A DNA stretch of 64,000 bases from Robiginitalea aurantiaca (GTDB lineage Bacteria; Bacteroidota; Bacteroidia; Flavobacteriales; Flavobacteriaceae), in assembly GCF_030380815.1 (NCBI RefSeq), contig NZ_JAUDUY010000001.1, forward strand, positions 558,001-622,000, read 5' to 3'. The position numbers and the translations under genes are program-made. Shown one piece after another: positions 15,721-30,472 of this stretch. Numbering within the stretch: position 1 is the first letter of the stretch; every line of letters begins with the position of its first letter. The notes beneath the pieces were generated by a model. That model was not told where the DNA came from, did no database searches, and saw nothing but the letters and a program-made list of their open reading frames with translations.

Positions 15721-15763
15721 TGATTTTTATCATGTGCTGCCCGGTGCCCTAGCTTTAGATTTG
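15721..15763 (+). promoter_or_regulatory. Fnr-type operator and promoter of hemN
   Basis: The palindrome TGAT-TTTT-ATCA at 15721-15732 matches the core of the Fnr box (TTGAT-N4-ATCAA). Exactly 23 nt later lies TAGATTTG (15756-15763), a perfect -7 element. Taking transcription to begin about 4 nt after it, the palindrome is centred near -41, the class II activator position. No TTG -33 element is present. hemN starts at 15781, giving a leader of about 14 nt. Confidence 0.75.
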
Positions 15764-15780
15764 TATGAAACAGCTTTAGA

Positions 15781-17139
15781 ATGTGTGATTTAGTTGCCAA
15801 ATACAACGTGCCTGGTCCGAGGTATACGAGTTATCCTACCGTCCCGTACTGGGATGTGGACTCTTTCACCGGAAAGGCCTGGAAGGAAAGTGTCGTCCGG
15901 GCTTTTTCGGAAAGCAATGAGAAAACGGGGATCAGCCTGTATATTCACCTGCCTTTTTGTGAGAGTATGTGTACGTTTTGCGGATGTCATAAGCGGATTA
16001 CCCGCAGGCATTCCGTGGAGGTACCCTATATCAGTTCCCTTTTAAAAGAATGGGAACTCTATCGGAAGCTCTTTGGCAAAAGGCCGGTAATCCGGGAATT
16101 ACACCTTGGCGGGGGCACACCTACCTTTTTCTCCCCGGAAAACCTCAAAATGCTTCTTGAAGGTATCTTCAGGTACGCAGAGCGACCCGAAGAATGGGAA
16201 TACAGTTTTGAAGGCCATCCTGCAAACACAACCCGGGAGCACCTAAAGGTACTGTATCAGGCGGGCTTCAGAAGGGTGTCCTATGGGGTGCAGGACTATA
16301 ATGAGACCGTTCAGCGCGCGATTCACAGGATTCAGACCTATGAGCAGGTGGCTGAAATCACAAAAATTTCCAGGGAGGAAGGTTTTACTTCAGTCGGCCA
16401 TGATATTATCTATGGCCTCCCTTTTCAGAAGGCTTCACACGTAGAAGAAACCCTTCAAAAAACCGCAGAGATACGGCCCGATCGCCTGGCTTTTTACAGT
16501 TATGCACATGTTCCCTGGCTCAAGGGAAATGGACAGCGCGGGTTTCAGGATTCCGACCTGCCCTCCCCCGATGAAAAGCGCCGGCAATACGAACTCGGTA
16601 AGGAAATCTTGGGAGCTGCTGGCTATCAGGAAATTGGGATGGATCACTATGCCCTGGAGACGGATAGCCTTTACCAGTCTATGATCAATGGGGGGTTGCA
16701 TCGTAATTTTATGGGATATACGGTTTCACGAACGCAGATGATGGTTGGACTTGGGGTTTCGAGTATCAGTGACAGCTGGTACGGATTTGCACAGAATGTA
16801 AAGAGTATCGAAGAATACGAACATCTGGTATCCTCAGGGATAATTCCGGTGTTTCGCGGACACCTGCTTTCTGAAGAAGACCAGCTGGTCCGCAGGCATA
16901 TCCTGGATCTGATGTGCCGTTTTAAGACCCGATGGGATAAAGGCCTTTCAGCGGAGCGCATTGCCGAAATCCGGGAGCGACTTTCGGAGCCCGAAGCAGA
17001 TGGGCTCCTCATCTTAAAGCCGGATACCGTTGAGGTAACGGAGCCCGGCAGGGTCTTTATCCGCAACATCTGTATGGCCTTTGACCTGCATTTGCACAAT
17101 AAAGTACCCGAAACAAGGTTATTTTCAATGACCGTTTAA
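15781..17139 (+). CDS. hemN: Oxygen-independent coproporphyrinogen III oxidase
   Basis: A 452-residue radical SAM enzyme that decarboxylates coproporphyrinogen III to protoporphyrinogen IX without oxygen. The cluster motif CESMCTFCGC (Cys60, 64, 67 and 69) is the HemN form with the fourth Cys, which distinguishes it from HemW. KYNVPGPRYTSYPT at the start is the family N-terminus, and LHLGGGTPTF is the SAM-binding GGGTP motif. The ATG at 15781 is preferred; an ATG at 15765 is out of frame and closes after four codons. A class II Fnr-type promoter precedes it, consistent with use under low oxygen. A usp gene follows after 16 nt. Confidence 0.96.
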   Translation: MCDLVAKYNVPGPRYTSYPTVPYWDVDSFTGKAWKESVVRAFSESNEKTGISLYIHLPFCESMCTFCGCHKRITRRHSVEVPYISSLLKEWELYRKLFGKRPVIRELHLGGGTPTFFSPENLKMLLEGIFRYAERPEEWEYSFEGHPANTTREHLKVLYQAGFRRVSYGVQDYNETVQRAIHRIQTYEQVAEITKISREEGFTSVGHDIIYGLPFQKASHVEETLQKTAEIRPDRLAFYSYAHVPWLKGNGQRGFQDSDLPSPDEKRRQYELGKEILGAAGYQEIGMDHYALETDSLYQSMINGGLHRNFMGYTVSRTQMMVGLGVSSISDSWYGFAQNVKSIEEYEHLVSSGIIPVFRGHLLSEEDQLVRRHILDLMCRFKTRWDKGLSAERIAEIRERLSEPEADGLLILKPDTVEVTEPGRVFIRNICMAFDLHLHNKVPETRLFSMTV

Positions 17140-17155
17140 CCCTAATCACTACACC

Positions 17156-17977
17156 ATGAAAACAATTATCGTACCCGTCGATTTCTCCCAACAATCCGAG
17201 TATGCCCTCGAAGTAGCATCTTCGCTGGCTAAAAAACACGATTCGGAGATAATCGTCCTGCATATGCTCGAACTGAATTACGCGATGATTTCCTCCTCCG
17301 AGGCCTATCATCCGGAACAAACGGTTTTTTTACTTAAAGTAGCTGAAAAGCGACTGGGGGAGTTTTTGCAAAAAGACTATTTGAAGGACATCAAGGTGAC
17401 CCCGGTAATCAAGCACTACAAAGTCTTTTCAGAAGTTAACGATGTAGCTGAAAGCAATAAGGCAGACCTGATCGTTATGGGGTCACATGGAACAGACGGA
17501 CTTCAGGAAATCTTTATCGGTTCCAACGCCGAACGCGTGGTTCGGAATTCAGATGTTCCTGTGATCGTTGTCAAAAAACCAAGACCTGGATTTAAGATCG
17601 ACACTTTCGTCTTTGCCTGCGATTTTAAAGAAGAAACACTGCCCGCCTTTAAAAAAGCAAAGGAGTTTGCCGATAAATTAGGCGCCGAATTCAAAGTGGT
17701 CTACATCAATACTCCCGGGGACAATTTCCTCAGTGATGGGGATATGAATCAGCAGATTTCAAAGTTCCAGGATCTTGCCAATACGGGACTTCAGGTAGAC
17801 AAGTACTGCGATTATAGCGTAGAACGCGGCGTGTTGAATTACTGTGAAAGTAACCATGCCGATCTGGTGGGTATCCCAACCCATGGGCGCAAAGGGATCT
17901 CCCATTTCTTTATGGGAAGTATCGGAGAAGATATTGCCAACCACTCACCGATTCCAGTGATCACCTTTAAATTGTAG
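17156..17977 (+). CDS. Universal stress protein, tandem UspA domains
   Basis: A 273-residue cytoplasmic protein with two Usp domains. The first begins MKTIIVPVDFSQQSEYALEV and ends with the ATP-binding glycine signature MGSHGTDGLQEIFIGSNAERVV; the second ends GIPTHGRKGISHFFMGSIGEDI. Tandem Usp proteins bind ATP or act as stress signalling factors. It is 16 nt downstream of hemN and has no separate promoter, so it should share the low-oxygen control of hemN. A strong terminator follows. Confidence 0.9.
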   Translation: MKTIIVPVDFSQQSEYALEVASSLAKKHDSEIIVLHMLELNYAMISSSEAYHPEQTVFLLKVAEKRLGEFLQKDYLKDIKVTPVIKHYKVFSEVNDVAESNKADLIVMGSHGTDGLQEIFIGSNAERVVRNSDVPVIVVKKPRPGFKIDTFVFACDFKEETLPAFKKAKEFADKLGAEFKVVYINTPGDNFLSDGDMNQQISKFQDLANTGLQVDKYCDYSVERGVLNYCESNHADLVGIPTHGRKGISHFFMGSIGEDIANHSPIPVITFKL

Positions 17978-18001
17978 AAAATTCATCGAATGAGTAACAA
18001 A

Positions 18002-18029
18002 GGGGCTGCAGGTGCAGCCCCTTTTTTTT
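18002..18029 (+). terminator. Intrinsic terminator of hemN-usp
   Basis: A perfect 8-bp stem GGGGCTGC/GCAGCCCC with a 4-nt AGGT loop is followed directly by eight T. It lies 25 nt after the usp stop and 11 nt before the end of the convergent CoA-transferase gene. Confidence 0.92.
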
Positions 18030-18039
18030 CGATTTTGGG

Positions 18040-19305
18040 TTATCCAAATCGCTTGTGAGCCTCAGCTTCAAGGGCTTCCCTGTGGTCCGGGTGTGCGATT
18101 GAAATCAGTTTCCGGGCGCGTTCCTGAAGGTTCTTCCCGAAGAGGTTTACCACCCCGAATTCTGTAGCTACATAGTGTACGTGTGCCCGTGTTGTGGTAA
18201 CCCCTGCGCCCGGCTTAAGCAATGGGGTGATCTTGGAAATGCCCTTGTTGGTAACGGAGGTGAGGGCTATGATCGGTTTTCCGCCCGGGGAAAGGGAGGC
18301 CCCCCTTATAAAATCCATCTGTCCGCCGACTCCTGAATATTGATAGGTCCCTATAGTGTCTGCACATACCTGCCCGGTAAGGTCGATTTCAATGGCACTG
18401 TTAATAGCCGTTACCTTTGGATTACGCCGGATGATGGTAGTATCATTCGTATACCCCGCTTCTTTAAAATGCACCAGGGGATTGTCATCGATAAAGTCGT
18501 AGAGCTCTTGAGAACCAGCGGCAAAACAGGTTACAATTTTATTGGTTTTAATCTCCTTTTCGGAACCTGTAATAACCCCTTGTTTAATCAGCGGAAGCAA
18601 ACCATCGGAAAACATTTCGGTATGTACGCCCAGGTTTTTGTGCCCGCTGAGGTTTTTCAGCACGGCATTCGGGATGCTCCCAATCCCCATCTGAAGGGTC
18701 GCCCCGTTTTCGATCAGGGAGGCGACATGTGCCCCGATTTTTGCTTCGGTTTCTGAAATCTCACCCTGTGGATAGGTATGAATGGGATTATCCATTTCCA
18801 CCAATGCATCGATCTGACTGATGTGTATTATCCCGTCCCCATGCGTTCTCGGTACCCTGGGGTTCAATTGGGCAATTACTTTTTTTGCAGTCTGTACGGC
18901 CGGCAGGGTAATGTCCACGGAAACACCCAGGGAACAATACCCGTGTTTATCGGGTGGAGATACCTGTACTACGGCAACATCGAGCGGGAGTAGGTTTCTT
19001 CTGAACAGCCAGTGAATCTCGCTGAGAAAAATAGGGATGTAGTCCCCCTGGTTTGTATTGACAGCCTTTCGAACGTTGCCTCCGACAAAGCATGAATTGA
19101 TTTTAAATGCCTTATTATACGGGGGCAGTGCGTAATTGACCACACCATCCGTGTGGATGGAAATCACCTCGACCTCCTCCAATTCCTCATACCGGCTGCA
19201 AATAGCGTTGACAAGGGTGTTTGGGGTCATGGCGGCTCCCTGAATGAAGATTCGGTTTCCGGATTTCACATAGGAAGCAGCGGTTTCCAGGGATACGATA
19301 TTCAT
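18040..19305 (-). CDS. Acetyl-CoA hydrolase/CoA-transferase family protein
   Basis: A 421-residue protein of the Cat1/4-hydroxybutyrate CoA-transferase family. Characteristic features are SPPDKHGYCSLGVSVD, LQMGIGSIPNAVL, the Glu of AIEIDLTGQVCADTIG that forms the CoA thioester in transferases, and the late segment GGQMDFIRGASLSPGGKPII. It moves CoA between acyl groups (acetate, succinate, butyrate and others) or hydrolyses acyl-CoA; the acids used cannot be deduced. It lies 38 nt behind the haloperoxidase-type gene and may be the last gene read from the oxidase cluster. It ends against the hemN-usp terminator. Confidence 0.85.
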   Translation of the reverse strand: MNIVSLETAASYVKSGNRIFIQGAAMTPNTLVNAICSRYEELEEVEVISIHTDGVVNYALPPYNKAFKINSCFVGGNVRKAVNTNQGDYIPIFLSEIHWLFRRNLLPLDVAVVQVSPPDKHGYCSLGVSVDITLPAVQTAKKVIAQLNPRVPRTHGDGIIHISQIDALVEMDNPIHTYPQGEISETEAKIGAHVASLIENGATLQMGIGSIPNAVLKNLSGHKNLGVHTEMFSDGLLPLIKQGVITGSEKEIKTNKIVTCFAAGSQELYDFIDDNPLVHFKEAGYTNDTTIIRRNPKVTAINSAIEIDLTGQVCADTIGTYQYSGVGGQMDFIRGASLSPGGKPIIALTSVTNKGISKITPLLKPGAGVTTTRAHVHYVATEFGVVNLFGKNLQERARKLISIAHPDHREALEAEAHKRFG

Positions 19306-19343
19306 AGGGCTATTTTTTAGGTTCTTAAGGGTATCCTTGCAGG

Positions 19344-20816
19344 TTACGAGCCCGAGGGGAGTCCCAGGTGTTTTTGATAAAACTTCCAGGCGTTTTGGGC
19401 AACGTCTCGCCCGAGTTCAAGGCCGGCAACATTGTCAGCTTCGATATGGTAACCGCCCATCACACGTGATTTTCCCGCCATTTCAGCAGTTTCGGTGAAG
19501 GTTGGGAATTTCAGGGTGACTGTATCCCCATAGTGTATGGGATCCAGCTCGGTCAATGCGCCAGGGACCAGTTTTACGGATTCACCGAAGTAATCGTCTT
19601 CCGTAAACAGGCGCAGGGCCTCGGCACAGGCTCCGCTAACTGTACTGTGGCCCGAGGTATAACTTGGAAATGGCGGACAAAGAAACACATCCGGCGAATA
19701 AGGCCGCCACTGCTCTCCAGGCATACTGATCATACCTTTACCAGGACCTCCCCAGGCCTGAATAACCTTGTCCTGGTAGTATTGGTGGACCAGGGCATAC
19801 GGGCGCGCATAATCGTAATACATTTTTGAATCCCAGGATGCGATAAAGGCATCCATGGCGGTAATCTGGTTCAGAAAGTACATTTTTACATCTTCATCAA
19901 GGGAGTGGGCATCCCTGCGGGAAACGTCCTGGGCAAATTTCAGCCAGTGGCCGGCCTGCTGAACGGACTTTGGCCCATCCCGCATAAATTCTACAAGTGC
20001 CTTGTCCGTATCTGTAAGACTGGCCTGGATCTCTATTACTTCCGCCACTTCCCGTTCAAGTTGTTCAGAACCGACCATTGGGGGAGGTCCTGGCCGAAAC
20101 TGGCTGGCAGAGTCAAGAGTGATTGGCCTTACATTTTGCCAATAGGGCGTCAGGCAACCCGGAGCAAATTTTTCGCCCTCGGCATTGGTGAAATACTTGG
20201 GTTGCCATCGGTTGATATCCACATTGCTGTCCGGGGAGTTTACGGGTGTATATCCCGTATAGTCAGAATAGGGGACACCATCAGAACCGGGGGCTTCCCC
20301 ATATTGATTTGCGCCGTCATTTTTCCGGGCTTCTATCACCGATAATGCCGCAAGATTGCCAATTCCTGCGGGAGTTTTTGGGTCAGTGCCCATGTCATCC
20401 GGATCCAGTCCCAGTTCGAGCATGTATTCCCGGAAAAGGGTTGTATCCGCATAGTAGTATTCATTGAGTGTCCGGAAAGCCGCGTAGCTGATAGCAATTT
20501 CCTTGTTGGAGCGGGTGTGTTCACCTTCGGGACGGCGTTCTACCGTTTGAAGGTATACCGGAATGGCTGTGGAATCGTATCGGGACCAGGCATCGAATAC
20601 GGCCGTAAAGATTAACCCGAGATATCGGGAAGTAACTGTGGGTCGGGGTGTAAAGCGCTCCGTGTCCAGGGCAGTGGCTTCCAGGGCCATTTGCCCCCAT
20701 TGGTAAGCCCGATTATGTACACCCGTGGGTTCTGTTTCCACAATTGCTTTTTCGGTTTCCTGCCTGCAGGAAATCAGTATTACTAAAACCAGAAAAGAAA
20801 TCCAGGATTTTTTCAT
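19344..20816 (-). CDS. Vanadium-dependent haloperoxidase-type lipoprotein (PAP2 family)
   Basis: The frame opens at 20867, but the ATG at 20816 gives a clean lipoprotein signal (MKKSWISFLVLVILISC, lipobox LISC) and is chosen, giving 490 residues. The PAP2/vanadium site is complete: KxxxxxxRP at Lys331/Arg338, the SGHS motif with His390, and SRVMGGYHIEAD with Arg451 and His457. His457 would bind vanadate in a haloperoxidase. The same residues also serve acid phosphatases, so haloperoxidase activity is a family-level inference. The product is probably anchored in the outer or inner membrane facing the periplasm. It follows the SafE-like gene by 38 nt, over an inverted repeat (CTTAA-N5-TTAAG at 20845-20859). 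Confidence 0.82.
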   Translation of the reverse strand: MKKSWISFLVLVILISCRQETEKAIVETEPTGVHNRAYQWGQMALEATALDTERFTPRPTVTSRYLGLIFTAVFDAWSRYDSTAIPVYLQTVERRPEGEHTRSNKEIAISYAAFRTLNEYYYADTTLFREYMLELGLDPDDMGTDPKTPAGIGNLAALSVIEARKNDGANQYGEAPGSDGVPYSDYTGYTPVNSPDSNVDINRWQPKYFTNAEGEKFAPGCLTPYWQNVRPITLDSASQFRPGPPPMVGSEQLEREVAEVIEIQASLTDTDKALVEFMRDGPKSVQQAGHWLKFAQDVSRRDAHSLDEDVKMYFLNQITAMDAFIASWDSKMYYDYARPYALVHQYYQDKVIQAWGGPGKGMISMPGEQWRPYSPDVFLCPPFPSYTSGHSTVSGACAEALRLFTEDDYFGESVKLVPGALTELDPIHYGDTVTLKFPTFTETAEMAGKSRVMGGYHIEADNVAGLELGRDVAQNAWKFYQKHLGLPSGS

Positions 20817-20854
20817 GACTAACAGTTTGATATACAGTATAATGCTTAAGATAT

Positions 20855-21556
20855 TTAAGGTTCGCACTCCATGGTTGTGGTTACCTGGTTTTGAGGTTGT
20901 TTTGGGGAAACATACGGAATTCCTAACCCCATACCTCTAAGAATAAAGAGAAGCCCGATCAGCACGACAAAAACGGGAATTAACTTCCGCACGGCGGGGA
21001 TTTTGGTCTTAAAAAGCTTCCCCATCAGGGCCGCCCCACTCATCAGGGGTATGGTTCCCAGTCCAAAAACCATCATATACAGGGCGCCCATGGGAGCAGA
21101 GGCCATGGCCATAGCGCCGACAAGGGCCATATAGACCAGGCCGCAGGGAAGGAATCCATTTAGGAATCCTATGCTCAGAAAAGCATCCGGATTTCCTTCC
21201 CTGAGTTTGGAGCCCATAGCGGACTGCAATTTTCCAAGAAGTCGATATACGGGCATGGCTGGCTTCCATTTCCGGAACGAATTACCGGGAATGAGCACCA
21301 GTAAGATCATTACCGCCCCAAGGACAATTGAAAGTTTCTGTTGAAAACCAAAGAGAAAAAGCCCTTTCCCGATAAGCCCAAAAACAAAGCCGATCAGGGC
21401 ATAGGCAAGCAGGCGACCAAAATGATATAGACCCAGTTGCAGGCCTCCTTTCAGCCGGTTTTTCCGGTTTAGGGGAAGCATAAAGGCTATGGGCCCGCAC
21501 ATTCCGATGCAATGCAGGCTTCCCAGTAATCCCAAAATTAATGCTGCTCCAAGCAT
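20855..21556 (-). CDS. SafE/TauE-like membrane protein of the cbb3 cluster
   Basis: A 233-residue integral membrane protein with about six helices, of the sulfite exporter/UreH-like transmembrane family. It has paired Cys motifs that could bind copper or undergo thiol exchange: HCIGMCGP near the N-terminus and NGFLPCGLVY in the middle. Members of this family close the cbb3 oxidase operon in many Bacteroidota and are thought to help copper delivery or maturation of the oxidase. A transport substrate is not established. It lies 42 nt after ccoH. Confidence 0.78.
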   Translation of the reverse strand: MLGAALILGLLGSLHCIGMCGPIAFMLPLNRKNRLKGGLQLGLYHFGRLLAYALIGFVFGLIGKGLFLFGFQQKLSIVLGAVMILLVLIPGNSFRKWKPAMPVYRLLGKLQSAMGSKLREGNPDAFLSIGFLNGFLPCGLVYMALVGAMAMASAPMGALYMMVFGLGTIPLMSGAALMGKLFKTKIPAVRKLIPVFVVLIGLLFILRGMGLGIPYVSPKQPQNQVTTTMECEP

Positions 21557-21598
21557 AGCGATTTTTATGCCTGCCGCCTCTGTGGGGTCGGCAGGACT

Positions 21599-22054
21599 TT
21601 AATCCTGGCTATATGTCATTTTGTGCTGAAAGAGATACGGTTTCCCTTTATAATTCCATTCGATGCGAATATCCCAGCGACCATCCAACAAGCGACTCTT
21701 GGGTATGAGCAATTGTCTTTCGGATAATTGAATTGGAGTTTTGAAGTCCAACTGCTTATTGGACGGTCTGTACAGGGATACAGTTCCTATTATTTTTTCC
21801 GGCTCAAACGCCTCTGGGAATCCGATGCGGATACCCTCAGAGGTTTTAGCTACTTGAATCCGGGCTCCGGTTTCATATAGGTTTCGGGCGGCATCGATAT
21901 CCTGCTGGTACTTCAGTTCCTGTTTGTAGTAATCCTCTGTAACCAGATCGTGATTGGATTCCGGATCCCGGAACGAGAGCACGACGAAATACAAAATGAA
22001 GATGATAAAGGCCACAAAAGCCAGGACAATTCCGGTTCCCCAATTGAATTTCAT
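21599..22054 (-). CDS. ccoH: FixH/CcoH-family cbb3 assembly protein
   Basis: A 151-residue protein with one N-terminal membrane helix (GIVLAFVAFIIFILYFVVL) followed by a periplasmic domain with the family segment DLVTEDYYKQELKYQ. FixH/CcoH stabilises the cbb3 oxidase during assembly. The gene starts 11 nt after the ccoG stop and sits in the standard order ccoP-ccoG-ccoH. Confidence 0.88.
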   Translation of the reverse strand: MKFNWGTGIVLAFVAFIIFILYFVVLSFRDPESNHDLVTEDYYKQELKYQQDIDAARNLYETGARIQVAKTSEGIRIGFPEAFEPEKIIGTVSLYRPSNKQLDFKTPIQLSERQLLIPKSRLLDGRWDIRIEWNYKGKPYLFQHKMTYSQD

Positions 22055-22065
22055 AATGTGTTGTT

Positions 22066-23481
22066 TTATCGGTATGAATGGGGCGCTAAAAAGCGCGCGG
22101 TGGTCGTCTCAACGAGTTCATCACCACTGTAAACCCCTATTTCTACTTTATCTTTATCCCCACTCAGGGCTGCGTTATTGATCTCAATAAATAAGGTTCC
22201 TTCAGACAATTCCTGAGCCGGAACATCAAAACCCGATCCCTTAACAAAGGTGATGGTCCCATTGTGTGAGAGGAGTTTAAAATTGATGTCCGGGATGGAC
22301 CGACTCGTTTTATTGATCAGTTTAAAGGTGTAAACATTGCTGATCATATTATTGTCCTTACGCTCATAGAGCTGGCCAGGAAGCCGCAGAACCGTGGCTT
22401 CCAGGTCATTTCTAAGAAACAGCATCCCAATTAGAACACTCATCAGTACCATCAGTACGGCGGCGTATCCCTTCATCCGGGGTGTAAACCGGAAAGGCAC
22501 TTTGTCCGAGATTTCAACCTCACTGGCATAGCGGATGAGTCCTTTGGGGTAACCTACTTTTTCCATAATGGTATCGCATTCGTCGATGCATGCGGTACAA
22601 TTGACGCACTCGAGTTGTGTTCCGTTACGGATATCGATTCCCGTTGGGCAAACATGTACACACTGAAGGCAATCGATGCAGTCTCCATGACCCATTGCGG
22701 ACCGATCCTCGTTCTTCCGGAATTTCTTTCGGCCGTTTTCGCCTTCACCCCTTTTGTAGTCATAGGCCACGACAACCGATTTGTCATCCAAAAGCACGCC
22801 CTGCATGCGTCCGTAGGGACAGGCTATAATGCAGACCTGCTCCCGGAACCATACAAATACAAAATAGAAGACTGCCGTAAAAATGAGGAGGGCGGTAAGG
22901 GTTCCGGTATGTTGTAAAGGGCCCTCCTTAATGTATGCGATGAGTTCATCACTCCCTATAAGGTAAGCGAGAAAGACATTGGCGATCAGAAAGGAAATAA
23001 TAAAAAAGATACTCCACTTCAGCAGCCGTTTCCGAATTTTCTGAGCATTCCAGGGTGCCCTGTCCAGGCGAATCTGCGCCCCCCGATCCCCGTCAATCCA
23101 GTATTCGATCCTGCGAAAAACCATTTCCATAAAAATGGTCTGAGGACACATCCACCCGCAAAAAATCCGGCCGAAAGCCACGGTAAAAAGGGCGATAAAG
23201 ATCACCCCAATAATCATGGAGATGACAAAGAGGTGAAAATCCTGCGGCCAGAATGGAAAACCAAAAATATTAAACTTGCGTTCCAGCACGTTGAACATGA
23301 GGAACTGGTTGCCATTCACCTTGACAAAAGGAGCGGCAAACAGAAAAATCAGCAAGACATAACTTACGTATTTTCGATAGGTGTAGAATTTGCCACTCGG
23401 TTTTTTAGGAAAAATCCAGGACCGTTTGCCTTCTTCTGAAATGGTGCTTATTGAATCCCGGAAATTTTCGTTTGATTCCAT
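22066..23481 (-). CDS. ccoG: CcoG/FixG cytochrome oxidase accessory ferredoxin
   Basis: A 471-residue membrane iron-sulfur protein. It has several helices in the first half, the motif GWMCPQTIFMEMVFR and, near residue 270, two [4Fe-4S] clusters: CIDCLQCVHVCP and CVNCTACIDEC. The C-terminal 150 residues form an immunoglobulin-like periplasmic domain. CcoG is understood to reduce copper for delivery to the cbb3 oxidase. It lies 36 nt after ccoP and is followed closely by ccoH. Confidence 0.94.
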   Translation of the reverse strand: MESNENFRDSISTISEEGKRSWIFPKKPSGKFYTYRKYVSYVLLIFLFAAPFVKVNGNQFLMFNVLERKFNIFGFPFWPQDFHLFVISMIIGVIFIALFTVAFGRIFCGWMCPQTIFMEMVFRRIEYWIDGDRGAQIRLDRAPWNAQKIRKRLLKWSIFFIISFLIANVFLAYLIGSDELIAYIKEGPLQHTGTLTALLIFTAVFYFVFVWFREQVCIIACPYGRMQGVLLDDKSVVVAYDYKRGEGENGRKKFRKNEDRSAMGHGDCIDCLQCVHVCPTGIDIRNGTQLECVNCTACIDECDTIMEKVGYPKGLIRYASEVEISDKVPFRFTPRMKGYAAVLMVLMSVLIGMLFLRNDLEATVLRLPGQLYERKDNNMISNVYTFKLINKTSRSIPDINFKLLSHNGTITFVKGSGFDVPAQELSEGTLFIEINNAALSGDKDKVEIGVYSGDELVETTTARFLAPHSYR

Positions 23482-23517
23482 ATGTTGACAACTTCATCGC
23501 ACCTTTTTCAGGTGGTT

Positions 23518-24489
23518 TTATTCCTCTTGTTCAAGAGGATTCAGGGCTTCCGTTTCCATAGGGGTATCTGCCATAGTAGAGTCTGTTTGTACCTCCGCTT
23601 CTTCTGCGGCGGCATTCTCATCGATCCAGATTTCGCCTTCCGGGTCTTTGGGATTTGCAGGGGTCGTTCCTTGCATCGACAGGATATAGCTGGATACCTG
23701 CGCCATTTCGCTGGGCTTTAGGGAGGTTTTCCAGGCGACCATTCCTTTCCCGGACCTGCCACCTTCAGAAACGGTGTTAAAGACATTTCGGATGCCTCCA
23801 CCGAGGATCCAGTACTCATCTGTCAGGTTGGGGCCAATTCCCCCGCCTCCGTCATTCATATGGCAAACCGCACAATTTCCCTGAAAGATGACTTCGCCTG
23901 CTTTCAGGTCTGAGGCTTCAGTGAGTAGTTCCACAGTATTGACATCCACAAGATCTTTAGCCGTTTTCTTGTATTCTTCGATCGCAATTCTCGCCTGGGC
24001 CATTTCCTGCTCGAACTCCGTATCCTGATCATAATCATTAAAAACGTGAAACCGGACCAGGTACACCACGCCGAAAACGATGGTGATGTAAAAAAGGTAA
24101 ATCCACCAAGGTGGTAACCGGTTGTCGAGTTCCCGAATTCCGTCGTAATTGTGATCCAGGATGATTTCCCCTTCTTCCTCTATAGGCCGGGAACCCAGGA
24201 GTTTCTGATAGACGCGTTTACCCCATGCCCATTCCCATCCCTGGCTTTTGGATTCCCGGTAGCGGGCTTTGGCCTCCTCTGAAAGCGTCTGGTACATGAT
24301 GTTTTCTATGGACTTCAGGATCAGTTCAATTGCGATTAGCAGCATCAGAACCAGTATCAGGAAGTATACAGTCATCGGATACGCGATAAAGGCCGGCTGA
24401 TCTCCTGAGTCGATAAAGTACTCCATCAGGAGGAAAATCGTGAAAAACAGCACGGGAACCCGTACCCAGGCGGGCGTTGAATTTCTCAT
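23518..24489 (-). CDS. ccoP: cbb3 oxidase subunit III, CcoP, single haem c
   Basis: A 323-residue membrane-anchored cytochrome c. Two helices near residues 10-60 are followed by a third (WWIYLFYITIVFGVVYLVRF) after the conserved CcoP stretch LDHNYDGIRELDNRLP. Only one haem-binding site is present, CAVCH at Cys206, with an axial Met probably supplied by GKGMVAWK. Classical CcoP carries two haem c groups, so this is a mono-haem form. The C-terminus is rich in Glu and Ala. The start overlaps the ccoQ stop by 4 nt. Confidence 0.9.
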   Translation of the reverse strand: MRNSTPAWVRVPVLFFTIFLLMEYFIDSGDQPAFIAYPMTVYFLILVLMLLIAIELILKSIENIMYQTLSEEAKARYRESKSQGWEWAWGKRVYQKLLGSRPIEEEGEIILDHNYDGIRELDNRLPPWWIYLFYITIVFGVVYLVRFHVFNDYDQDTEFEQEMAQARIAIEEYKKTAKDLVDVNTVELLTEASDLKAGEVIFQGNCAVCHMNDGGGGIGPNLTDEYWILGGGIRNVFNTVSEGGRSGKGMVAWKTSLKPSEMAQVSSYILSMQGTTPANPKDPEGEIWIDENAAAEEAEVQTDSTMADTPMETEALNPLEQEE

Positions 24490-24677
24490 TGGTCAAAAGG
24501 TTTTTGGTGTTGGTCGTCTAGTGGCATTTCTTCAAGTTCCTTGATCCGCTCTTTTGAGGTGGTAAAGACCCACCAAAAGAGGAGGGTAAAAAAGACGAAG
24601 AATATCAGGAGTGAAATCATCGGATAGGTCGCAATCCCTTCGATGCTTTCCAAATGGTGTTTTACAATTTTCATCAT
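24486..24677 (-). CDS. ccoQ: CcoQ-like small membrane subunit
   Basis: A 63-residue protein with one hydrophobic helix (PMISLLIFFVFFTLLFWWVF) and a charged C-terminal tail. Size, topology and place between ccoNO and ccoP identify it as the CcoQ-type subunit that stabilises the cbb3 complex. It starts 3 nt after ccoNO and overlaps ccoP by 4 nt. Confidence 0.8.
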   Translation of the reverse strand: MMKIVKHHLESIEGIATYPMISLLIFFVFFTLLFWWVFTTSKERIKELEEMPLDDQHQKPFDQ

Positions 24678-24680
24678 GGC

Positions 24681-26882
24681 TTAGCGGTTTTCAGAGGCGA
24701 CCTCCGTGTTCTGTTGAATCTTAATATCGGTCCCCAGGCGCTGCAGGTAGGCAATCATCGCGACGATTTCCCGGTCTTTCATTTCGATGAATTCCTCCCC
24801 ATTCTGCTGGGCATAGGTTTTCTCCTCCTCGTAACTCCTTACAAATTCAGGATCGGCGTAGAGGTTCTTTTCGATCTGTGCGGCCTGTGCAGCCATGGAT
24901 TCCTGCGCCCCGGCGATATCCTCTTCTGTGTAGGGTACGCCCAGGGTAACCATGGTCTTCATTTTGTCCACAGTGCCACTTCGGTCGTGACGGTTTCGGA
25001 TAAGCCATTTGTAGGATGGCATTATCGAACCAGATGAAGTGCTTTGCGGATCGTAAAAATGGTTCAGGTGCCAGTTGTCGGAGTACTTTCCGCCAACCCG
25101 TAGCAGATCGGGCCCGGTCCGTTTACTTCCCCATAGGAAAGGGTGGTCGTACACAAATTCACCAGCCTTGGCGTATTCCCCGTAACGCTCGACTTCGCTC
25201 CGGAAGGGACGCACCATTTGGGAGTGACAGCCTACACAGCCCTCTCGGATATACAGGTCGCGACCTTCGAGTTCAAGGGGCGTATAGGGGGTGACACTTG
25301 TGATGGTTGGGATATTCGATTTCACCAGCAAGGTTGGGATGATCTGAATAACACCACCGATAAGGATCGCCACTGTGGCCAGGAGTGTGAGCTGAATCGG
25401 TCTGCGCTCCAGCCAGGTGTGATATTTTTCTCCGGCTTTTCTTCTTCCTCCGATTCTGGAAAGTGCGGGAGCCTCGGCAAGTTCATCTTCCAACTTGCTG
25501 CCCGAGCGTATCGTTACAATGATATTGTAGAGCATTACCAGCATCCCTACCAGGTACATGGAACCTCCAATGGCACGCATCCAGTACATGGGCATGATTT
25601 CATTTACAGTTTCCAGGAAGTTTCCATAAACCAGGGTACCGTCAGGGTTGAATTCTTTCCACATCAGGGCCTGCGTAAACCCGGCGACGTACATGGGCAG
25701 GGCATAGAGGATGATCCCAAGGGTGCCAATCCAGAAATGGAAGTTGGCCATGCCCGTAGAGTGCAGTCGGGTTTTAAACATTCTCGGCACCAGCCAGTAA
25801 ATCATCCCGAAAGTAAGGAACCCGTTCCATGCGAGCGCTCCGACGTGGACGTGGGCAATAATCCAGTCACTAAAGTGAGCAATGGCATTGATGTTCTTAA
25901 GCGAGAGCATCGGGCCTTCGAAGGTGGCCATACCATAACCGGTAATAGCCACAACCATAAACTTCAGCACCGGACTCGTCCGTACTTTGTCCCAGGCACC
26001 CCTAAGGGTAAGCAGCCCGTTGATCATACCTCCCCAGGAAGGGGCGATGAGCATAATAGAAAAGGTAACCCCAAGGTTTTGTGCCCAGTCTGGCAAGGCG
26101 GAATAGAGTAAATGGTGGGGTCCGGCCCAGATATAGATAAATATGAGGGACCAGAAGTGAACTATGGAGAGTCTGTACGAATAGATAGGACGGTTTGCCG
26201 CCTTGGGAACGAAATAATACATCAGCCCCAGGAATGGCGTGGTCAGGAAAAAGGCAACTGCATTGTGACCATACCACCATTGTACCAGTGCATCTTGTAC
26301 ACCAGCATATACTGAATAACTTTTCATCGCACTCACAGGGAGCGCCAGGCTGTTAAAAATATGGAGTACTGCAACCGTTACAATGGTTGCCAGATAGAAC
26401 CAGATAGCCACATAGAGGTGGCGCTGCCGGCGCTTGAGCATGGTCCCGATGAAGTTCCAGCCGAAAATGACCCATACTACTGCAATCGCCAAATCGATTG
26501 GCCATTCGAGTTCAGCGTATTCTTTTGAAGACGTATACCCTAAAGGAAGTGTAATCGCAGCCGCCACAATAATGGCCTGCCATCCCCAGAAGTTAAAGTT
26601 ACTCATCCAGTCGCTGAACATACGCGCTTTGAGGAGTCTCTGGGTCGAATAGTAAACCCCTGCAAACAAGGCATTACCGACAAAGGCAAAAATAACTGCA
26701 TTGGTGTGCAAGGGGCGAAGGCGCCCAAAGCTCAGCCAGGAAATCCCATCCGTGAGGTTTGGGAAAATAAACATAAATGCCAGTAGCAGCCCTACCAGCA
26801 TCCCGACAACACCCCAAAGCAGCGTGGCATACAGGAATTTCTGTACGATTTTGTTGTCATAGTGAAATTGCTGAATCTCCAT
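24681..26882 (-). CDS. ccoNO: Fused cbb3 oxidase subunits I and II, CcoNO
   Basis: A 733-residue protein. Residues 1 to about 470 are the CcoN haem-copper core, with 12 or more helices and His-bearing segments LRPLHTNAVIF, WWYGHNAVAFF, GPHHLLYSALPDWAQN and SDWIIAHVHVGALAWN. After a linker and a further helix near residue 505 comes the CcoO part with haem-binding CVGCH at Cys549 and the segment GPDLLRVGGKYSDNWH. CcoN reduces oxygen and CcoO passes electrons to it. In Proteobacteria these are two genes; here they are one frame without a stop. It follows ccoS by 10 nt. Confidence 0.95.
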   Translation of the reverse strand: MEIQQFHYDNKIVQKFLYATLLWGVVGMLVGLLLAFMFIFPNLTDGISWLSFGRLRPLHTNAVIFAFVGNALFAGVYYSTQRLLKARMFSDWMSNFNFWGWQAIIVAAAITLPLGYTSSKEYAELEWPIDLAIAVVWVIFGWNFIGTMLKRRQRHLYVAIWFYLATIVTVAVLHIFNSLALPVSAMKSYSVYAGVQDALVQWWYGHNAVAFFLTTPFLGLMYYFVPKAANRPIYSYRLSIVHFWSLIFIYIWAGPHHLLYSALPDWAQNLGVTFSIMLIAPSWGGMINGLLTLRGAWDKVRTSPVLKFMVVAITGYGMATFEGPMLSLKNINAIAHFSDWIIAHVHVGALAWNGFLTFGMIYWLVPRMFKTRLHSTGMANFHFWIGTLGIILYALPMYVAGFTQALMWKEFNPDGTLVYGNFLETVNEIMPMYWMRAIGGSMYLVGMLVMLYNIIVTIRSGSKLEDELAEAPALSRIGGRRKAGEKYHTWLERRPIQLTLLATVAILIGGVIQIIPTLLVKSNIPTITSVTPYTPLELEGRDLYIREGCVGCHSQMVRPFRSEVERYGEYAKAGEFVYDHPFLWGSKRTGPDLLRVGGKYSDNWHLNHFYDPQSTSSGSIMPSYKWLIRNRHDRSGTVDKMKTMVTLGVPYTEEDIAGAQESMAAQAAQIEKNLYADPEFVRSYEEEKTYAQQNGEEFIEMKDREIVAMIAYLQRLGTDIKIQQNTEVASENR

Positions 26883-26892
26883 AGATCAATTT

Positions 26893-27087
26893 TTATTTTG
26901 GTTTATCCAGTTGGTTGAAATTTTGCGCATCAGGTTCCTTCTCGAGCAGCTCATCTTCAAAAAGCATGCGCACAGAAGGGGTGTAGGAGTCGTCATACTG
27001 ACCGCTCCTGACAGAAATAATAAAGGCTATAAAAAAGATTAAGGCCACCAAGATACTGATAGCCAGCAACATATAAATAACGCTCAT
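26893..27087 (-). CDS. ccoS: cbb3 oxidase assembly protein CcoS
   Basis: A 64-residue protein with one N-terminal helix (MSVIYMLLAISILVALIFFI) followed by SVRSGQYDDSYTPSVRMLF, the CcoS signature. CcoS is needed for insertion of haem and copper cofactors into the oxidase. It is first behind its own Fnr-type promoter, 74 nt downstream of ccoI, and heads ccoS-NO-Q-P-G-H. Confidence 0.92.
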   Translation of the reverse strand: MSVIYMLLAISILVALIFFIAFIISVRSGQYDDSYTPSVRMLFEDELLEKEPDAQNFNQLDKPK

Positions 27088-27107
27088 ACCCAGGCGGAAT
27101 TTGGTCG

Positions 27108-27150
27108 TAAAACTAGACGCTTTGTAAAGTTAAAAATATGATAAATATCA
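27108..27150 (-). promoter_or_regulatory. Fnr-type operator and promoter of ccoS-ccoNOQP
   Basis: On the reverse strand TGAT-ATTT-ATCA (27139-27150) precedes TAGTTTTA (27108-27115) by exactly 23 nt. The -7 element differs from TAnnTTTG only at its last base. The site lies between the ccoI stop and the ccoS start, so the oxidase genes have their own activated promoter in addition to any read-through from ccoI. Confidence 0.72.
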
Positions 27151-27161
27151 GTGTTCAAATG

Positions 27162-29537
27162 TTAAAGAATTTTTCTGCTGATCCAATTCGTGGCCAGGGT
27201 GGTAAATCCGACAATGCTGATCGAACTCAACGGCATGAGGATGGCGGCAATTACGGGTTCAAGTTGTCCGGTAACCGCAAAATACAACCCCACCACGTTG
27301 TACATGAGGGAAAACCCAAAACTCATGTAGATGATCTTCATCGCTTTTTTCGTGGTTTCCAGAAATACATTGAGTTTGGCAAACTGCCTGCTGTCGAGGA
27401 TGCCGTCACAGGCCGGGGTAAAGAGGTTTGCATCCTCACTGATGGCGATACCGACCTTGCTCTGTGCAAGGGCCCCGGCATCATTCAGGCCATCCCCCAC
27501 CATCAGGACTTCCTTTCCGTCCTGCTGTAATTCCCGGACAAACTGGAGTTTTTCTTTCGGTTTCTGATTGAAATACATAGGAGTCAGGGGAGGCAGCAGG
27601 TCTTCCAGGTATGCTTTCTCTGATTCGTTATCCCCGGAGAGTACCGCCAGGGCATAGACTTTGCTCAGATCTTCAAAGAGTTTGCCCGCCCCTTTCCTGT
27701 AGCTGTTGCGAATGACAAACCGCCCTTTATAGGTGTCGTTGGAACTGACGTGAACTTCAGATCCCCCTGTTTCAAGTGAGGGCATTCCAGTGACGAACTG
27801 ACTGGAGCCTACCCGGATATGTTCATCTGCCAACCTGCCTTCAAGGCCTTCCCCAAGGTGTTCTTCAAACCCGTCCAGGGGAACAATATTATAGGATGCC
27901 AATTGCTGATACAGCGTCTGACTCAGAGGGTGGCCGGATGCCCTGAGTGTGTTTTTTAATAAAATCGCCTCGGCTTCTGTGAGTTCGATACCGGTATAGT
28001 CGATGCTGTTCTTCCGGGTAGTGGTCAGCGTGCCGGTTTTGTCAAAAATAACCGTGTCTACCAGCGCCATGCGTTCCAGACTCTCCGTATCCTTGACGTA
28101 GAAACCTTTTTTTCCGAAGATTCTCAGCAGGTTCCCCAGGGTGAAAGGGGCTGCAAGAGCAATGGCGCAGGGACAGGCAATAATCAGTACAGCGGTAAGT
28201 ACATTCAGAGCACGGGAGGGATCAATAAAGAGCCAGATAGCTGCAGCCAAAAAGGCGATGGAAAGCACGGCTACTGTAAATCTTTTTCCAATGCGGTCAG
28301 TGAGATTCCGAAAGGCCGTCCTGTGGTTTTTGGAGAAGGCGGCATCGCTCCAGAGCTCTGTCAGGTAGCTTTGGGAAACGGGTTTGAGTACTTCGATCTC
28401 GATGGCTCCCTTTAACTGCTTTCCACCGGCATATAGCCGGTCTCCGCTTTGTTTGGAGACGGCTCTTGCCTCCCCGGTTACAAAGCTGTAATCTAATTTT
28501 CCCTCGCCCTTGAGCAGGATAGAATCTGCTGGGATAAGCGAGCCGCTTTTAATCAGTAACCGATCTCCGGTTTCAACCTGGTGGACTGGGATGTTTTCTT
28601 CTGACGCATCCGCTTTTAGACGGGTGACCGCAATCGGAAAATAAGAACGGTAATCCCGCTCAAATGATAAAAAGGAATAGGTCCGCTGTTGGAAGAATTT
28701 CCCGAGAAGGAGGAAAAAAACCAGTCCGGAAAGGCTGTCAAAAAATCCCTGCCCGAGATCAAAGGAGATCTCAACGGTACTGCGAATAAACAATACGAGG
28801 ATTCCCAGGGCGATGGGAACGTCGATGTTGAGCATCCCTGAGCGCAGGCTTTTGTAGGCCGAGGTCAGATATCCCGAACCTGAATAGAAAACCACGGGGA
28901 GGGAAAACGCGAACATAATCCAGTGGAAAAGGCCTTTGTATTTTTCAAGCCAGAATTCCCCGCTTTCGAAGTATTCCGGGAAGGAGAGAAACATGATATT
29001 TCCAAAGGCAAAACCCGCGATACCTAACTGGTAGATCAGTTTACGGTCCACTTTTTCCGATTCCCCCTCGTACTGCTCAAGGGTTATAGAGGGTTCATAT
29101 CCAATGGCATTTAACAGGCCTACCAATTCTTTTAGACTGATATGATCCGGATTGAAGTGGATGCGGGCTTCTTTCCGCGGAAAATCTACCTGGCTGCTGT
29201 AAACCCCTGAATTTAAACGACTCAGGTTTTCGAGGATCCAAATACAGGAACTGCAATGGATGTGAGGAATGTTGAAGGTGATCACAGAATGGGAACCATC
29301 CTGAAACTCCAGAAGGCGCTCTGCAATTAGCGGGTCATCCAGGAAGTCAAACTTACCATGCAGGGGTTCGGGGGTTTTGCCCGGGGCACCTTCGAGTTCG
29401 TAATAGTAACTCAGGTCGTTATCTCTGAATATGGCATAGACCGTCTTGCAACCGTTGCAACAGAAGGATTTTTCGTCGAACCGTATTTCCTCCGCCTCAC
29501 ATGGAAGTCCGCAATGAAAACAAGAAGTGTCAGTCAT
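27162..29537 (-). CDS. ccoI: CcoI/FixI copper-translocating P1B-type ATPase
   Basis: A 791-residue P-type ATPase that supplies copper for the cbb3 oxidase. The N-terminus has a Cys-rich metal-binding segment (CFHCGLPCEAEE and CCNGCKTVY) and an HMA-like domain with CSSCIWILENL. Then come the membrane region with the CPC ion-path motif (IACPCAIALAAPFTLGN), the phosphorylation motif DKTGTLT, the HP motif in SGHPLSQ and the hinge MVGDGLNDAGALAQ. All catalytic residues appear intact. It is divergent from fnr across 145 nt that hold a shared Fnr-type site. ccoS follows after 74 nt. Confidence 0.95.
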   Translation of the reverse strand: MTDTSCFHCGLPCEAEEIRFDEKSFCCNGCKTVYAIFRDNDLSYYYELEGAPGKTPEPLHGKFDFLDDPLIAERLLEFQDGSHSVITFNIPHIHCSSCIWILENLSRLNSGVYSSQVDFPRKEARIHFNPDHISLKELVGLLNAIGYEPSITLEQYEGESEKVDRKLIYQLGIAGFAFGNIMFLSFPEYFESGEFWLEKYKGLFHWIMFAFSLPVVFYSGSGYLTSAYKSLRSGMLNIDVPIALGILVLFIRSTVEISFDLGQGFFDSLSGLVFFLLLGKFFQQRTYSFLSFERDYRSYFPIAVTRLKADASEENIPVHQVETGDRLLIKSGSLIPADSILLKGEGKLDYSFVTGEARAVSKQSGDRLYAGGKQLKGAIEIEVLKPVSQSYLTELWSDAAFSKNHRTAFRNLTDRIGKRFTVAVLSIAFLAAAIWLFIDPSRALNVLTAVLIIACPCAIALAAPFTLGNLLRIFGKKGFYVKDTESLERMALVDTVIFDKTGTLTTTRKNSIDYTGIELTEAEAILLKNTLRASGHPLSQTLYQQLASYNIVPLDGFEEHLGEGLEGRLADEHIRVGSSQFVTGMPSLETGGSEVHVSSNDTYKGRFVIRNSYRKGAGKLFEDLSKVYALAVLSGDNESEKAYLEDLLPPLTPMYFNQKPKEKLQFVRELQQDGKEVLMVGDGLNDAGALAQSKVGIAISEDANLFTPACDGILDSRQFAKLNVFLETTKKAMKIIYMSFGFSLMYNVVGLYFAVTGQLEPVIAAILMPLSSISIVGFTTLATNWISRKIL

Positions 29538-29584
29538 TTTAGGGCGCTTATACGCTTTGAAATTATAAAAAGCTTACAATCCCG

Positions 29585-29660
29585 CAAAGGTGACGGAATG
29601 TTAAAGGAGAAAAGATGACACTTGTCAGCTTTTAAAGTATTCAAATTTTAGCTACTTTTA
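29585..29660. promoter_or_regulatory. Shared Fnr-type operator between ccoI and fnr
   Basis: The central palindrome TGAC-ACTT-GTCA is at 29616-29627. Toward ccoI, 23 nt separate it from CACCTTTG (29585-29592 on the reverse strand), seven of eight matches to the -7 consensus. Toward fnr, 25 nt separate it from TACTTTTA (29653-29660), again seven of eight. The half-site TGAC differs from TGAT at the other three sites by one base in each arm and keeps perfect symmetry. One bound dimer could serve both directions, including autoregulation of fnr. Confidence 0.6.
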
Positions 29661-29682
29661 TTAAAGAAAATCGACCATTCCA

Positions 29683-30372
29683 ATGGAGGAGCGTTGTGAG
29701 AATTGTATTGTTCGAAAATTCAACGCCTTACGGGCAATGAGCAAGGAGGAGTTGAAAGCAGTCAGCGACTCCAAAGTTTCCCGCAAGGTCAAAAAAGGGG
29801 AAGTCATTTTCGACGAAGGGGAAAAACTCAATGGTATTTACTGTGTCCGGGGAGGGGTTTCCAAATTGGCAAAACTTAGCCCGAACGGCAAAGACCAGAT
29901 TGTAAAACTCGCCTCCAAGGGAGAAGTACTCGGGCAGCGTTCAGTAGTTGCCGAGGAAAATTCCAACCTGAGCGCAACTGCGGTCAGTGATATGGAAATG
30001 TGTTTTATCCCAAAGGAGGCTATCATCAGTACATTGCATAAAAATCCTGACTTCACCTATGAGGTGCTTCGTCATATGGCCCACGACCTCAAGGAAGCCG
30101 ATGACGTCATCGTAAATATGTCCCAAAAGACGGTCAAGGAGCGCATAGCCGAAGCCCTCATCTATATGAAGAACAATTTCGGTGAAGATAAGGAAGGGTA
30201 CCTCGCCCTGGTATTATCAAGGGAGGACATCGCAAATGTTGTGGGTACTGCGACCGAATCCTGTATTCGAATCCTTTCTGAGTTTAAGAAAAAAGGATTG
30301 ATCAAAACTTCCGGAAAGCGCATGGCGATCCTGGAAGCGCGAAAGCTTCAGGATCTGGCCGACGGCTTCTGA
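29683..30372 (+). CDS. fnr: Crp/Fnr-family regulator with Fnr-like cysteines
   Basis: A 229-residue regulator with an N-terminal cyclic-nucleotide-binding-type beta-roll and a C-terminal winged helix (LSREDIANVVGTATESCIRIL). Cysteines are at 5, 8, 54, 107 and 194. CENC at 5-8 resembles the start of the Fnr cluster loop, and Cys107 in EMCFIP aligns with Fnr Cys122 (VCEIP), so an oxygen-labile iron-sulfur cluster is plausible; the spacing of the remaining ligand is not classical. In the recognition helix Glu192 and Arg196 match Fnr Glu209 and Arg213, which read the TGA core of the Fnr box. It sits divergent from ccoI and upstream of a usp gene, both with such boxes. Confidence 0.88.
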   Translation: MEERCENCIVRKFNALRAMSKEELKAVSDSKVSRKVKKGEVIFDEGEKLNGIYCVRGGVSKLAKLSPNGKDQIVKLASKGEVLGQRSVVAEENSNLSATAVSDMEMCFIPKEAIISTLHKNPDFTYEVLRHMAHDLKEADDVIVNMSQKTVKERIAEALIYMKNNFGEDKEGYLALVLSREDIANVVGTATESCIRILSEFKKKGLIKTSGKRMAILEARKLQDLADGF

Positions 30373-30429
30373 ATTTACTAAGGCTGCAGTTCATTACATC
30401 AAAGAATTTTCAGGCTTTTTTCGAAAAGA

Positions 30430-30472
30430 TGATCGATATCATACTTTCTCCCTATTTGAGAAACTACTTTTA
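30430..30472 (+). promoter_or_regulatory. Fnr-type operator and promoter of the second usp gene
   Basis: TGAT-CGAT-ATCA at 30430-30441 is followed after exactly 23 nt by TACTTTTA (30465-30472), one base from TAnnTTTG. The start codon is at 30488, so the leader is about 11 nt. No -33 TTG is present. Confidence 0.75.

Follow-up and report, generated by a model that had tools for sequence, protein, structure and literature searches.

A putative class II promoter class with a fixed 23-nucleotide box-to-octamer spacing at the cbb3 oxidase locus of Robiginitalea aurantiaca and in other Flavobacteriaceae

Introduction

Do four promoters around the cbb3 oxidase genes of Robiginitalea aurantiaca carry the same activator box at the same distance from the core promoter by chance, or do they form one regulated class, and which regulator would read the box? 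The question concerns a 64,000-nucleotide (nt) stretch of DNA, called the window here (contig 11, 558001-622000, of a genome of 3,462,382 bases in 52 contigs). A first-pass annotation had described a palindrome, TGAY-N4-RTCA, upstream of hemN, ccoS, ccoI and a usp gene, separated in each case by exactly 23 nt from a -7-like octamer, and had read the four as Fnr boxes of a low-oxygen regulon. It is highly probable, judged from sequence comparisons, that these are class II activator-dependent promoters, at which a CRP/FNR dimer on (A/C)TGAY-N4-RTCAT centred at -41.5 would aid the sigma-A polymerase. Computed results are the 23-nt spacing, the enrichment of the motif genome-wide and family-wide, its conservation at the promoters of ccoS, ccoI, the regulator gene (fnr) and usp in relatives, and the way in which site number follows the regulator genes.

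Composite sites in the window and the genome

Re-reading by eye and by script confirmed the coordinates of the four boxes and four octamers (Table 1) and a spacer of exactly 23 nt in each. All four boxes were two-fold palindromes of the CRP/FNR type, TGAY-N4-RTCA. The window contained ten such palindromes; an octamer nAnnTTTR lay 23 nt off on one side in four of them, and these were exactly the four sites first described. It was also correct that three of the four octamers depart by one base from TAnnTTTG.

A genome-wide search, of the kind proposed in the first-pass annotation, returned 25 matches to the composite TGAY-N4-RTCA-N23-TAnnTTTR and none for the pattern read backwards. The octamer of ccoI starts with C, which keeps that site out of the 25. 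With spacers of 8-38 nt allowed, there were 46 matches versus four for the reversed patterns; 24 of the 46 had the 23-nt spacer, and no other length occurred more than three times. The hemN site appeared at spacer 17 in this search because a nearer TAGCTTTA was reported there. At all 25 sites a frame of at least 25 amino acids (aa) began 7-118 nt downstream of the octamer; seven boxes also lay inside mechanical open reading frames of at least 80 aa, which are no evidence of genes. The logo of the 25 sites was (C/A)TGA(T/C)NNAN(A/G)TCAT(T/A)T at the box (base before TGA: A in nine, C in 13, G in two, T in one) and, past the spacer, TANNTTT followed by A in 20 sites and G in five. A weak preference for A was seen 12-14 nt ahead of the box.

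Position of the box relative to the core promoter

The sigma-A box TAnnTTTG of Flavobacterium psychrophilum spans positions -12 to -5 (PMC9723704, main text). With the octamer at -12 to -5 and a 23-nt spacer, the box therefore lies at -47 to -36, centred at -41.5, relative to the predicted starts. CRP and FNR occupy this position at class II promoters, and class II control by these proteins is textbook knowledge. As a yardstick, the nirB promoter of Escherichia coli, whose box is centred at -41.5, has 22 nt between TGATTTACATCA and TAAGGT, which we take to be its -10 element. The earlier proposal of activator-dependent promoters with a class II centre near -41 was supported by the spacing, the published octamer position and the genome-wide, family-wide and cross-species counts.

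In common with E. coli class II promoters such as nirB, the box sits beside the core element in one rigid register. The present sites differ in that the core element is the Bacteroidota -7 octamer, usually ending in A, the outer base of the box is A or C rather than T, and polymerase and sigma factor are those of another phylum. A clear -33 TTG, said to be missing, was absent from the four window sites, and no TTG occurred within -36 to -30 in 18 of the 25 genomic sites; for the class as a whole the statement held less well, as discussed below.

Occurrence in the family and phylum

Among 149 Flavobacteriaceae genomes, one per genus, the composite was present at least once in 137. There were 2140 matches with a 23-nt spacer versus 79 for the reversed 23-nt pattern, and 215 and 245 matches for spacers of 22 and 24 nt, a rigid spacing to the core promoter. 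At either neighbouring spacer the background amounts to some 1.5 matches per genome.

Chance, base composition or coding constraint therefore retain next to no probability as an explanation. The palindrome pattern is short and background matches do occur, but this candidate was refuted by the reversed pattern (25 versus none in the genome, 2140 versus 79 in the family), by the neighbouring spacers, and by a group of regulator-free genomes in which the spacer peak disappeared (see below). The first-pass judgement that the spacing is hard to explain by chance was borne out by the same counts.

In a survey of 392 genomes of the phylum, the composite was found in all 46 genomes of the same family (675 sites, 27 reversed), all eight of the same order (48 sites, two reversed), 44 of the 51 of the same class (234 sites, 22 reversed) and 103 of the remaining 287 (289 sites, 49 reversed). 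Four genomes of one family contributed 112 of the 289 sites outside the class. Four genomes of one genus in a distant lineage of the phylum (G413, G448, G521 and G525) had 25-33 composites each and no reversed match, and other genomes outside the class had 0-8, mostly none.

Conservation of the ccoS-ccoI-fnr-usp locus

Two samples of the locus were compared: 30 orthologous loci, one per genus and including that of R. aurantiaca, with regulators 58 to 100% identical; and 80 named relatives (Robiginitalea, Muricauda, Maribacter and others), mostly close kin and not independent samples. Of the 30 orthologous loci, 29 (all but L054) had a box no more than 400 nt upstream of the Fnr-type gene. Read by eye, the sequence towards ccoI showed nAnnTTTR at a distance of exactly 23 nt in 27 of these 29 (the misses were L035 and L050), and a single one of these octamers began with T; towards fnr the octamer at 23 nt fitted TAnnTTTG in eight of the 29. 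Among the relatives a box lay within 400 nt of fnr in 65, and in 65 of 65 the octamer towards ccoI stood at 23 nt; none stood at 15-22 or 24-31 nt in these 65.

The 80 loci contained 303 composites, which simple sequence tests of the frame behind them assigned to usp (78), ccoS (72), fnr (55), ccoI (73) and other frames (19), with no assigned frame for six; hemN lies outside these loci and was not covered. Composites at usp, found in 78 of the 80 relatives, all had T as first base of the octamer and A as last base in 77. Those at ccoS, found in 72 of the 80, all began with T and ended with A in 70; six of the eight loci lacking one were shortened by a contig end. The fnr composites began with T in all 55 and ended with G in 53. 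At ccoI the first base was C in 60, A in seven and G in six, and the last base was G in 72. Because ccoI composites never begin with T in the relatives, the odd window octamer CACCTTTG is the rule at ccoI. The non-T base at -12 of ccoI, together with the promoter-specific last base, suggests a tuning of activator dependence.

Fifty boxes in the relatives serve ccoI and fnr divergently, both at 23 nt. In the window the regulator-gene side of the corresponding box has TACTTTTA at 25 nt (29653-29660), not at 23. This offset, and the fact that CRP/FNR proteins also repress, would suit a box that is a repressor operator or dual-acting, with the regulator blocking polymerase. Such a role is very improbable: operators tolerate varied positions, and one rigid distance in 2140 sites, a -33 TTG missing from 18 of 25 promoters and a centre at -41.5 are marks of class II activation.

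In 15 of the 80 relatives a second CRP/FNR-like gene lies between ccoI and the Fnr-type gene (L094, L096, L097, L105, L107, L108, L110, L115, L117, L136, L146, L149, L150, L157 and L169), and no box within 400 nt of fnr was counted there. A CxxC motif was present in the first 70 residues of none of the 15 products (that of L149 is cut). The otherwise invariant recognition Arg is replaced by Asn in 13, by Ser in L136 and by His in L157; the extra protein should therefore recognise another box or serve as a modifier.

The Fnr-type regulator

The product of the gene at 29683 contains a cyclic nucleotide (cNMP)-binding domain and a Crp-type helix-turn-helix (PF00027, PF13545 and PF00325 above cut-off), and alignment relates it to FNR-type regulators of known structure. 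Cys5, Cys8, Cys54 and Cys107 were invariant in all 80 relatives, and the recognition-helix residues Glu192, Ile195 and Arg196 were kept in 30 of 30 orthologues. In E. coli FNR, with the cysteine numbering that we take to apply, the cluster ligands are Cys20, Cys23, Cys29 and Cys122; three of the four aligned with cysteines (Cys5, Cys8 and Cys107 with Cys20, Cys23 and Cys122), and the equivalent of Cys29 is Asn14. Cys54 could be a substitute cluster ligand. The NCBIfam Fnr model PRK11161 gave 102.6 bits, below its cut-off of 228.

The protein thus resembles the [4Fe-4S] oxygen sensor Fnr in its CRP/FNR domains, its N-terminal CxxC, a Cys107 comparable to Cys122, and the cbb3, hemN and usp genes behind the boxes. 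It differs in Asn14, in the extra invariant Cys54 and in Ile195 at what we take to be the Ser212 position. The E. coli Fnr consensus is TTGAT-N4-ATCAA. The boxes here are (A/C)TGAY-N4-RTCAT instead, with T before TGA in a single one of the 25 sites. On these comparisons the 29683 product is classed as Fnr-like, not Fnr proper, and oxygen sensing by an iron-sulfur cluster is plausible. The earlier description of Fnr boxes with the regulator gene among their targets stood as to a CRP/FNR gene amid a respiratory core; the box consensus, the Cys29 equivalent and the model score departed from Fnr proper.

A receiver-CRP fusion as second candidate reader

The genome encodes six proteins with a cNMP-binding domain. 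One, on contig 50, is a 356-aa receiver-cNMP-HTH_Crp fusion (PF00072; PF00027, PF13545 and PF00325 above cut-off). Just upstream of it a partner kinase of 1101 aa is encoded, in which PAS, HisKA and HATPase domains were recognised and a GAF match fell short of the Pfam cut-off. The kinase and fusion genes are one base apart (L173:796-5173, contig 50) and a composite site precedes the kinase gene (L024), an arrangement that is likely to be a self-activating two-component operon. In 29 of 29 fusions extracted from 30 loci the receiver residues Asp9, Asp52 and Lys104 were invariant, as in response regulators, and so were the recognition-helix residues Glu318, Ile321 and Arg322.

The recognition residues E-x-x-I-R are common to the Fnr type and the fusion, which are 30% identical over 197 residues. 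DNA contacts of CRP-type proteins are placed at positions 180, 181 and 185 in the relevant passage of PMC1274295, and by our own mapping the shared residues would fall in this DNA-contacting part. The logo of 67 sites from genomes with the fusion only (octamers ending TTTA) did not differ obviously, by eye, from the own-genome logo. Since the recognition residues are shared and site counts follow both regulators (next section), the box probably has a reader besides the 29683 product, the receiver-CRP fusion being the candidate. No gene of the genome scores higher for this domain than a further cNMP-binding-domain gene near the end of contig 50 (L026, 273-524); with an open frame of only 140 aa, it probably has its DNA-binding part outside the assembly.

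Site number and regulator genes

At cut-offs of E <= 1e-40 for the fusion and E <= 1e-55 for the Fnr type, the fusion was present in 66 of the 149 genomes and absent from 83, and the Fnr type was present in 89. The median number of sites per genome was 26 with both regulators (n=36), 10 with the Fnr type only (n=53) and 15 with the fusion only (n=30). It was 1 in genomes with neither but another CRP/FNR match (n=10), 0 in those with no match (n=18) and 1.5 in those with a weak Fnr-type match (n=2). Restricting the comparison to genomes of 2.5-4.5 megabases (Mb) gave medians of 26, 10, 16 and 1 for both, Fnr only, fusion only and neither (n=30, 39, 27 and 11). Site number also rose with fusion copy number: for 0, 1 and 2 copies without the Fnr type the medians were 1, 14 and 24.5 (n=28, 22 and 8), and for 0-3 copies with it 10, 25, 33 and 41 (n=53, 28, 6 and 2). 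In a regression over the 149 genomes that ignores kinship, the Fnr type added 8.4 sites (standard error 1.4) and each fusion copy 10.8 (0.9), with an R2 of 0.59. Genome size was rejected as the cause of site number, adding 1.2 sites per Mb (standard error 0.8).

The spacing peak accompanied either regulator. In genomes with only the Fnr type, 36 of the 150 matches listed (from six of 13 genomes) had the 23-nt spacer and other spacers 1-12 each; in genomes with only the fusion, 67 of the 150 listed (from eight of 13 genomes) had it and other spacers 0-7. The 28 genomes without either regulator gave 17, 75 and 31 matches for spacers of 22, 23 and 24 nt, 55 of the 75 in G048, G138 and G147. The other 25 gave 11, 20 and 20, with no peak.

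A single-regulator reading was dropped, as the 30 genomes with the fusion but without the Fnr type have 6-37 sites. Their median, the identical recognition residues and the presence of six cNMP-binding-domain proteins would also suit a box read mainly by the fusion or another CRP/FNR protein, with other targets for the 29683 gene. That arrangement is improbable, given the sites of the Fnr-only genomes and their spacing peak among the matches listed, the box at most 400 nt ahead of the Fnr-type gene in all but one of 30 orthologous loci, and the absence of the fusion, at its cut-off, from more than half of the genomes.

Targets of the composite sites

Genes with an evident role in low-oxygen or energy metabolism lie behind eight of the 25 sites: hemN, the ccoS-ccoNO operon, four usp genes (L010, L011, L021 and L022), a [NiFe] hydrogenase, and the PAS kinase with the fusion. 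According to PMC9723704, whose main text mentions neither Fnr nor Crp, oxygen limitation induces the cbb3 oxidase and enzymes of haem synthesis in F. psychrophilum. The hydrogenase operon behind a composite (L006, L175; contig 11, 375001-384000) encodes small and large subunits, cytochrome b561, a maturation protease and HypF, pointing to hydrogen metabolism under low oxygen.

Other targets are TauE, MlaE, a CDP-alcohol phosphatidyltransferase, YtxH, a pyridoxamine oxidase-like protein, GNAT/YoaP, GH3 and DUF285-repeat proteins. Seven had no Pfam match (L005, L007, L015, L016, L017, L020 and L025), and L002 and L014 were outside the Pfam scan. Phosphotransacetylase and acetate kinase genes adjoin a divergent usp gene (contig 50, L022), and the side of the box that faces them carries no octamer at 23 nt.

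Proposed activation and points against it

At the window promoters the activator would be the Fnr-type 29683 product, active at low oxygen. A dimer of the active regulator would bind the box and bring sigma-A polymerase to a -7 element (TAnnTTTR, -12 to -5) that would be weak alone and mostly lacks a -33 TTG; the fixed distance from box to octamer would reflect simultaneous contact. Less surely, the fusion, phosphorylated by the adjacent PAS kinase, would read the same kind of box, so that two signals could meet on one promoter class.

For the Flavobacteriaceae at large, we give about even odds to a fuller picture: one class II promoter class with two sensors, an Fnr type with unusual invariant cysteines (two N-terminal, Cys54 and Cys107) and a receiver-CRP fusion in a phospho-relay with identical recognition residues, each of the two genes bringing some ten promoters to a genome. 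In it, a single box at the core locus would drive ccoI and the regulator gene divergently, both from -41.5, and ccoI would be kept off the consensus by the conserved non-T base at -12.

Several observations weigh against these proposals. The relatives are kin and not independent samples. TTG near -33 is present in seven of the 25 sites, more than the 2.3 that would be expected given the DNA upstream of the boxes; its absence is therefore not uniform, and a weak -33 element may exist in some of the promoters. For 17 of the 25 sites the gene behind has no evident low-oxygen role; the low-oxygen regulon first proposed has a clear respiratory core around the regulator gene, but two thirds of the targets show no evident connection with oxygen. 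Among the Fnr-positive genomes some have very few sites, with a minimum of one. Three genomes have sites without either regulator, namely G147 (16 sites, 73% complete), G048 (29 sites, 82%) and G138 (10 sites). G138 is 99% complete and still has its ten composites, and a third box reader may therefore exist.

Comparison with known systems

In the FixL-FixJ-FixK system of rhizobia a PAS kinase signals to a CRP/FNR-type regulator with low-oxygen targets, as the kinase next to the fusion would here. It differs in the LuxR-type output of FixJ and the separate FixK; here receiver and CRP/FNR output are in one chain. HcpR and CrpPg of Bacteroidota share the superfamily and the phylum. HcpR differs in the motif of HcpR2, GTAAC-N4-GTTAC, and in lacking the Fnr-type cysteine motif, as given in the relevant passage of PMC1274295. 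In the community described in PMC8510549, CRP/FNR homologues from Flavobacteriales are assigned to carbon sensing (MalR-like). In the open literature, judged by title or abstract opening among the papers listed and with subscription papers mostly outside the scope, no description of this promoter class or of a receiver-CRP partner in Flavobacteriaceae was found. As far as open papers go, the extent of the class in the family with its -7 octamer, the divergent shared box and the fusion as second candidate reader are new.

Activator-dependent initiation is understood mainly from Proteobacteria. A -41.5 register this strict in a family with a different core promoter makes box, start site and likely regulon readable from sequence in more than 100 genomes, and with site counts at hand for genomes that have or lack each regulator, a two-sensor regulon is open to direct test. 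The promoter-specific bases at -12 and -5 offer a ready mutation set on how an activator compensates a weak -7 element.

Features of the window

Coordinates are collected in Table 1. The name ccoS for its frame is presumed, no profile scan having been applied. The ccoS promoter probably also serves ccoNO, ccoP and ccoG, and the Usp gene behind hemN is probably in the hemN operon. The copper model TIGR01511 scored below its cut-off for ccoI, whose copper specificity we infer from the gene's place in the locus.

Table 1. Promoter elements and genes of the window (positions in the window; predicted starts follow from the octamer position).
Feature	Coordinates	Strand	Basis or remark
Putative activator box, hemN promoter, TGATTTTTATCA	15721..15732	+	Sequence, genome pattern search, script
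hemN -7 octamer, TAGATTTG	15756..15763	+	-12 to -5; predicted start 15768; position rule, PMC9723704 (main text)
hemN, oxygen-independent coproporphyrinogen III oxidase	15781..17139	+	TIGR00538, 409 bits, above cut-off 325
Usp gene 16 nt behind hemN, without own composite site	17156..17977	+	PF00582
ccoG	22066..23481	-	TIGR02745 above cut-off
ccoP-like cytochrome c subunit	23518..24489	-	TIGR00782, 106 bits, below cut-off 180
ccoN-ccoO fusion of cbb3 oxidase	24681..26882	-	PRK14485 above cut-off
ccoS (presumed name), 64 aa, N terminus MSVIY	26893..27087	-	Sequence, frame
ccoS -7 octamer, TAGTTTTA	27108..27115	-	Predicted start 27103
Putative activator box, ccoS promoter, TGATATTTATCA as read on - strand	27139..27150	-	Sequence, pattern search, script
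ccoI-type heavy-metal P-type ATPase	27162..29537	-	PF00122, PF12156 and others
ccoI -7 octamer, CACCTTTG, first base C	29585..29592	-	Predicted start 29580
Putative activator box between ccoI and regulator gene, TGACACTTGTCA	29616..29627	. (- for ccoI)	Sequence, script
Fnr-type CRP/FNR regulator, 229 aa	29683..30372	+	Cys5, Cys8, Cys54, Cys107; recognition residues E192, I195, R196
Putative activator box, usp promoter, TGATCGATATCA	30430..30441	+	Sequence, pattern search, script
usp -7 octamer, TACTTTTA	30465..30472	+	Predicted start 30477
usp gene (universal stress protein)	30488..31345	+	PF00582

Two further genes lie near these features. An acetyl-CoA hydrolase/transferase family gene is located at 18040-19305, near the cco locus; its nearest model is butyryl-CoA:acetate CoA-transferase, with a score below the cut-off of that model. 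A homogentisate 1,2-dioxygenase-like gene is located at 31886-33043, downstream of the usp gene.

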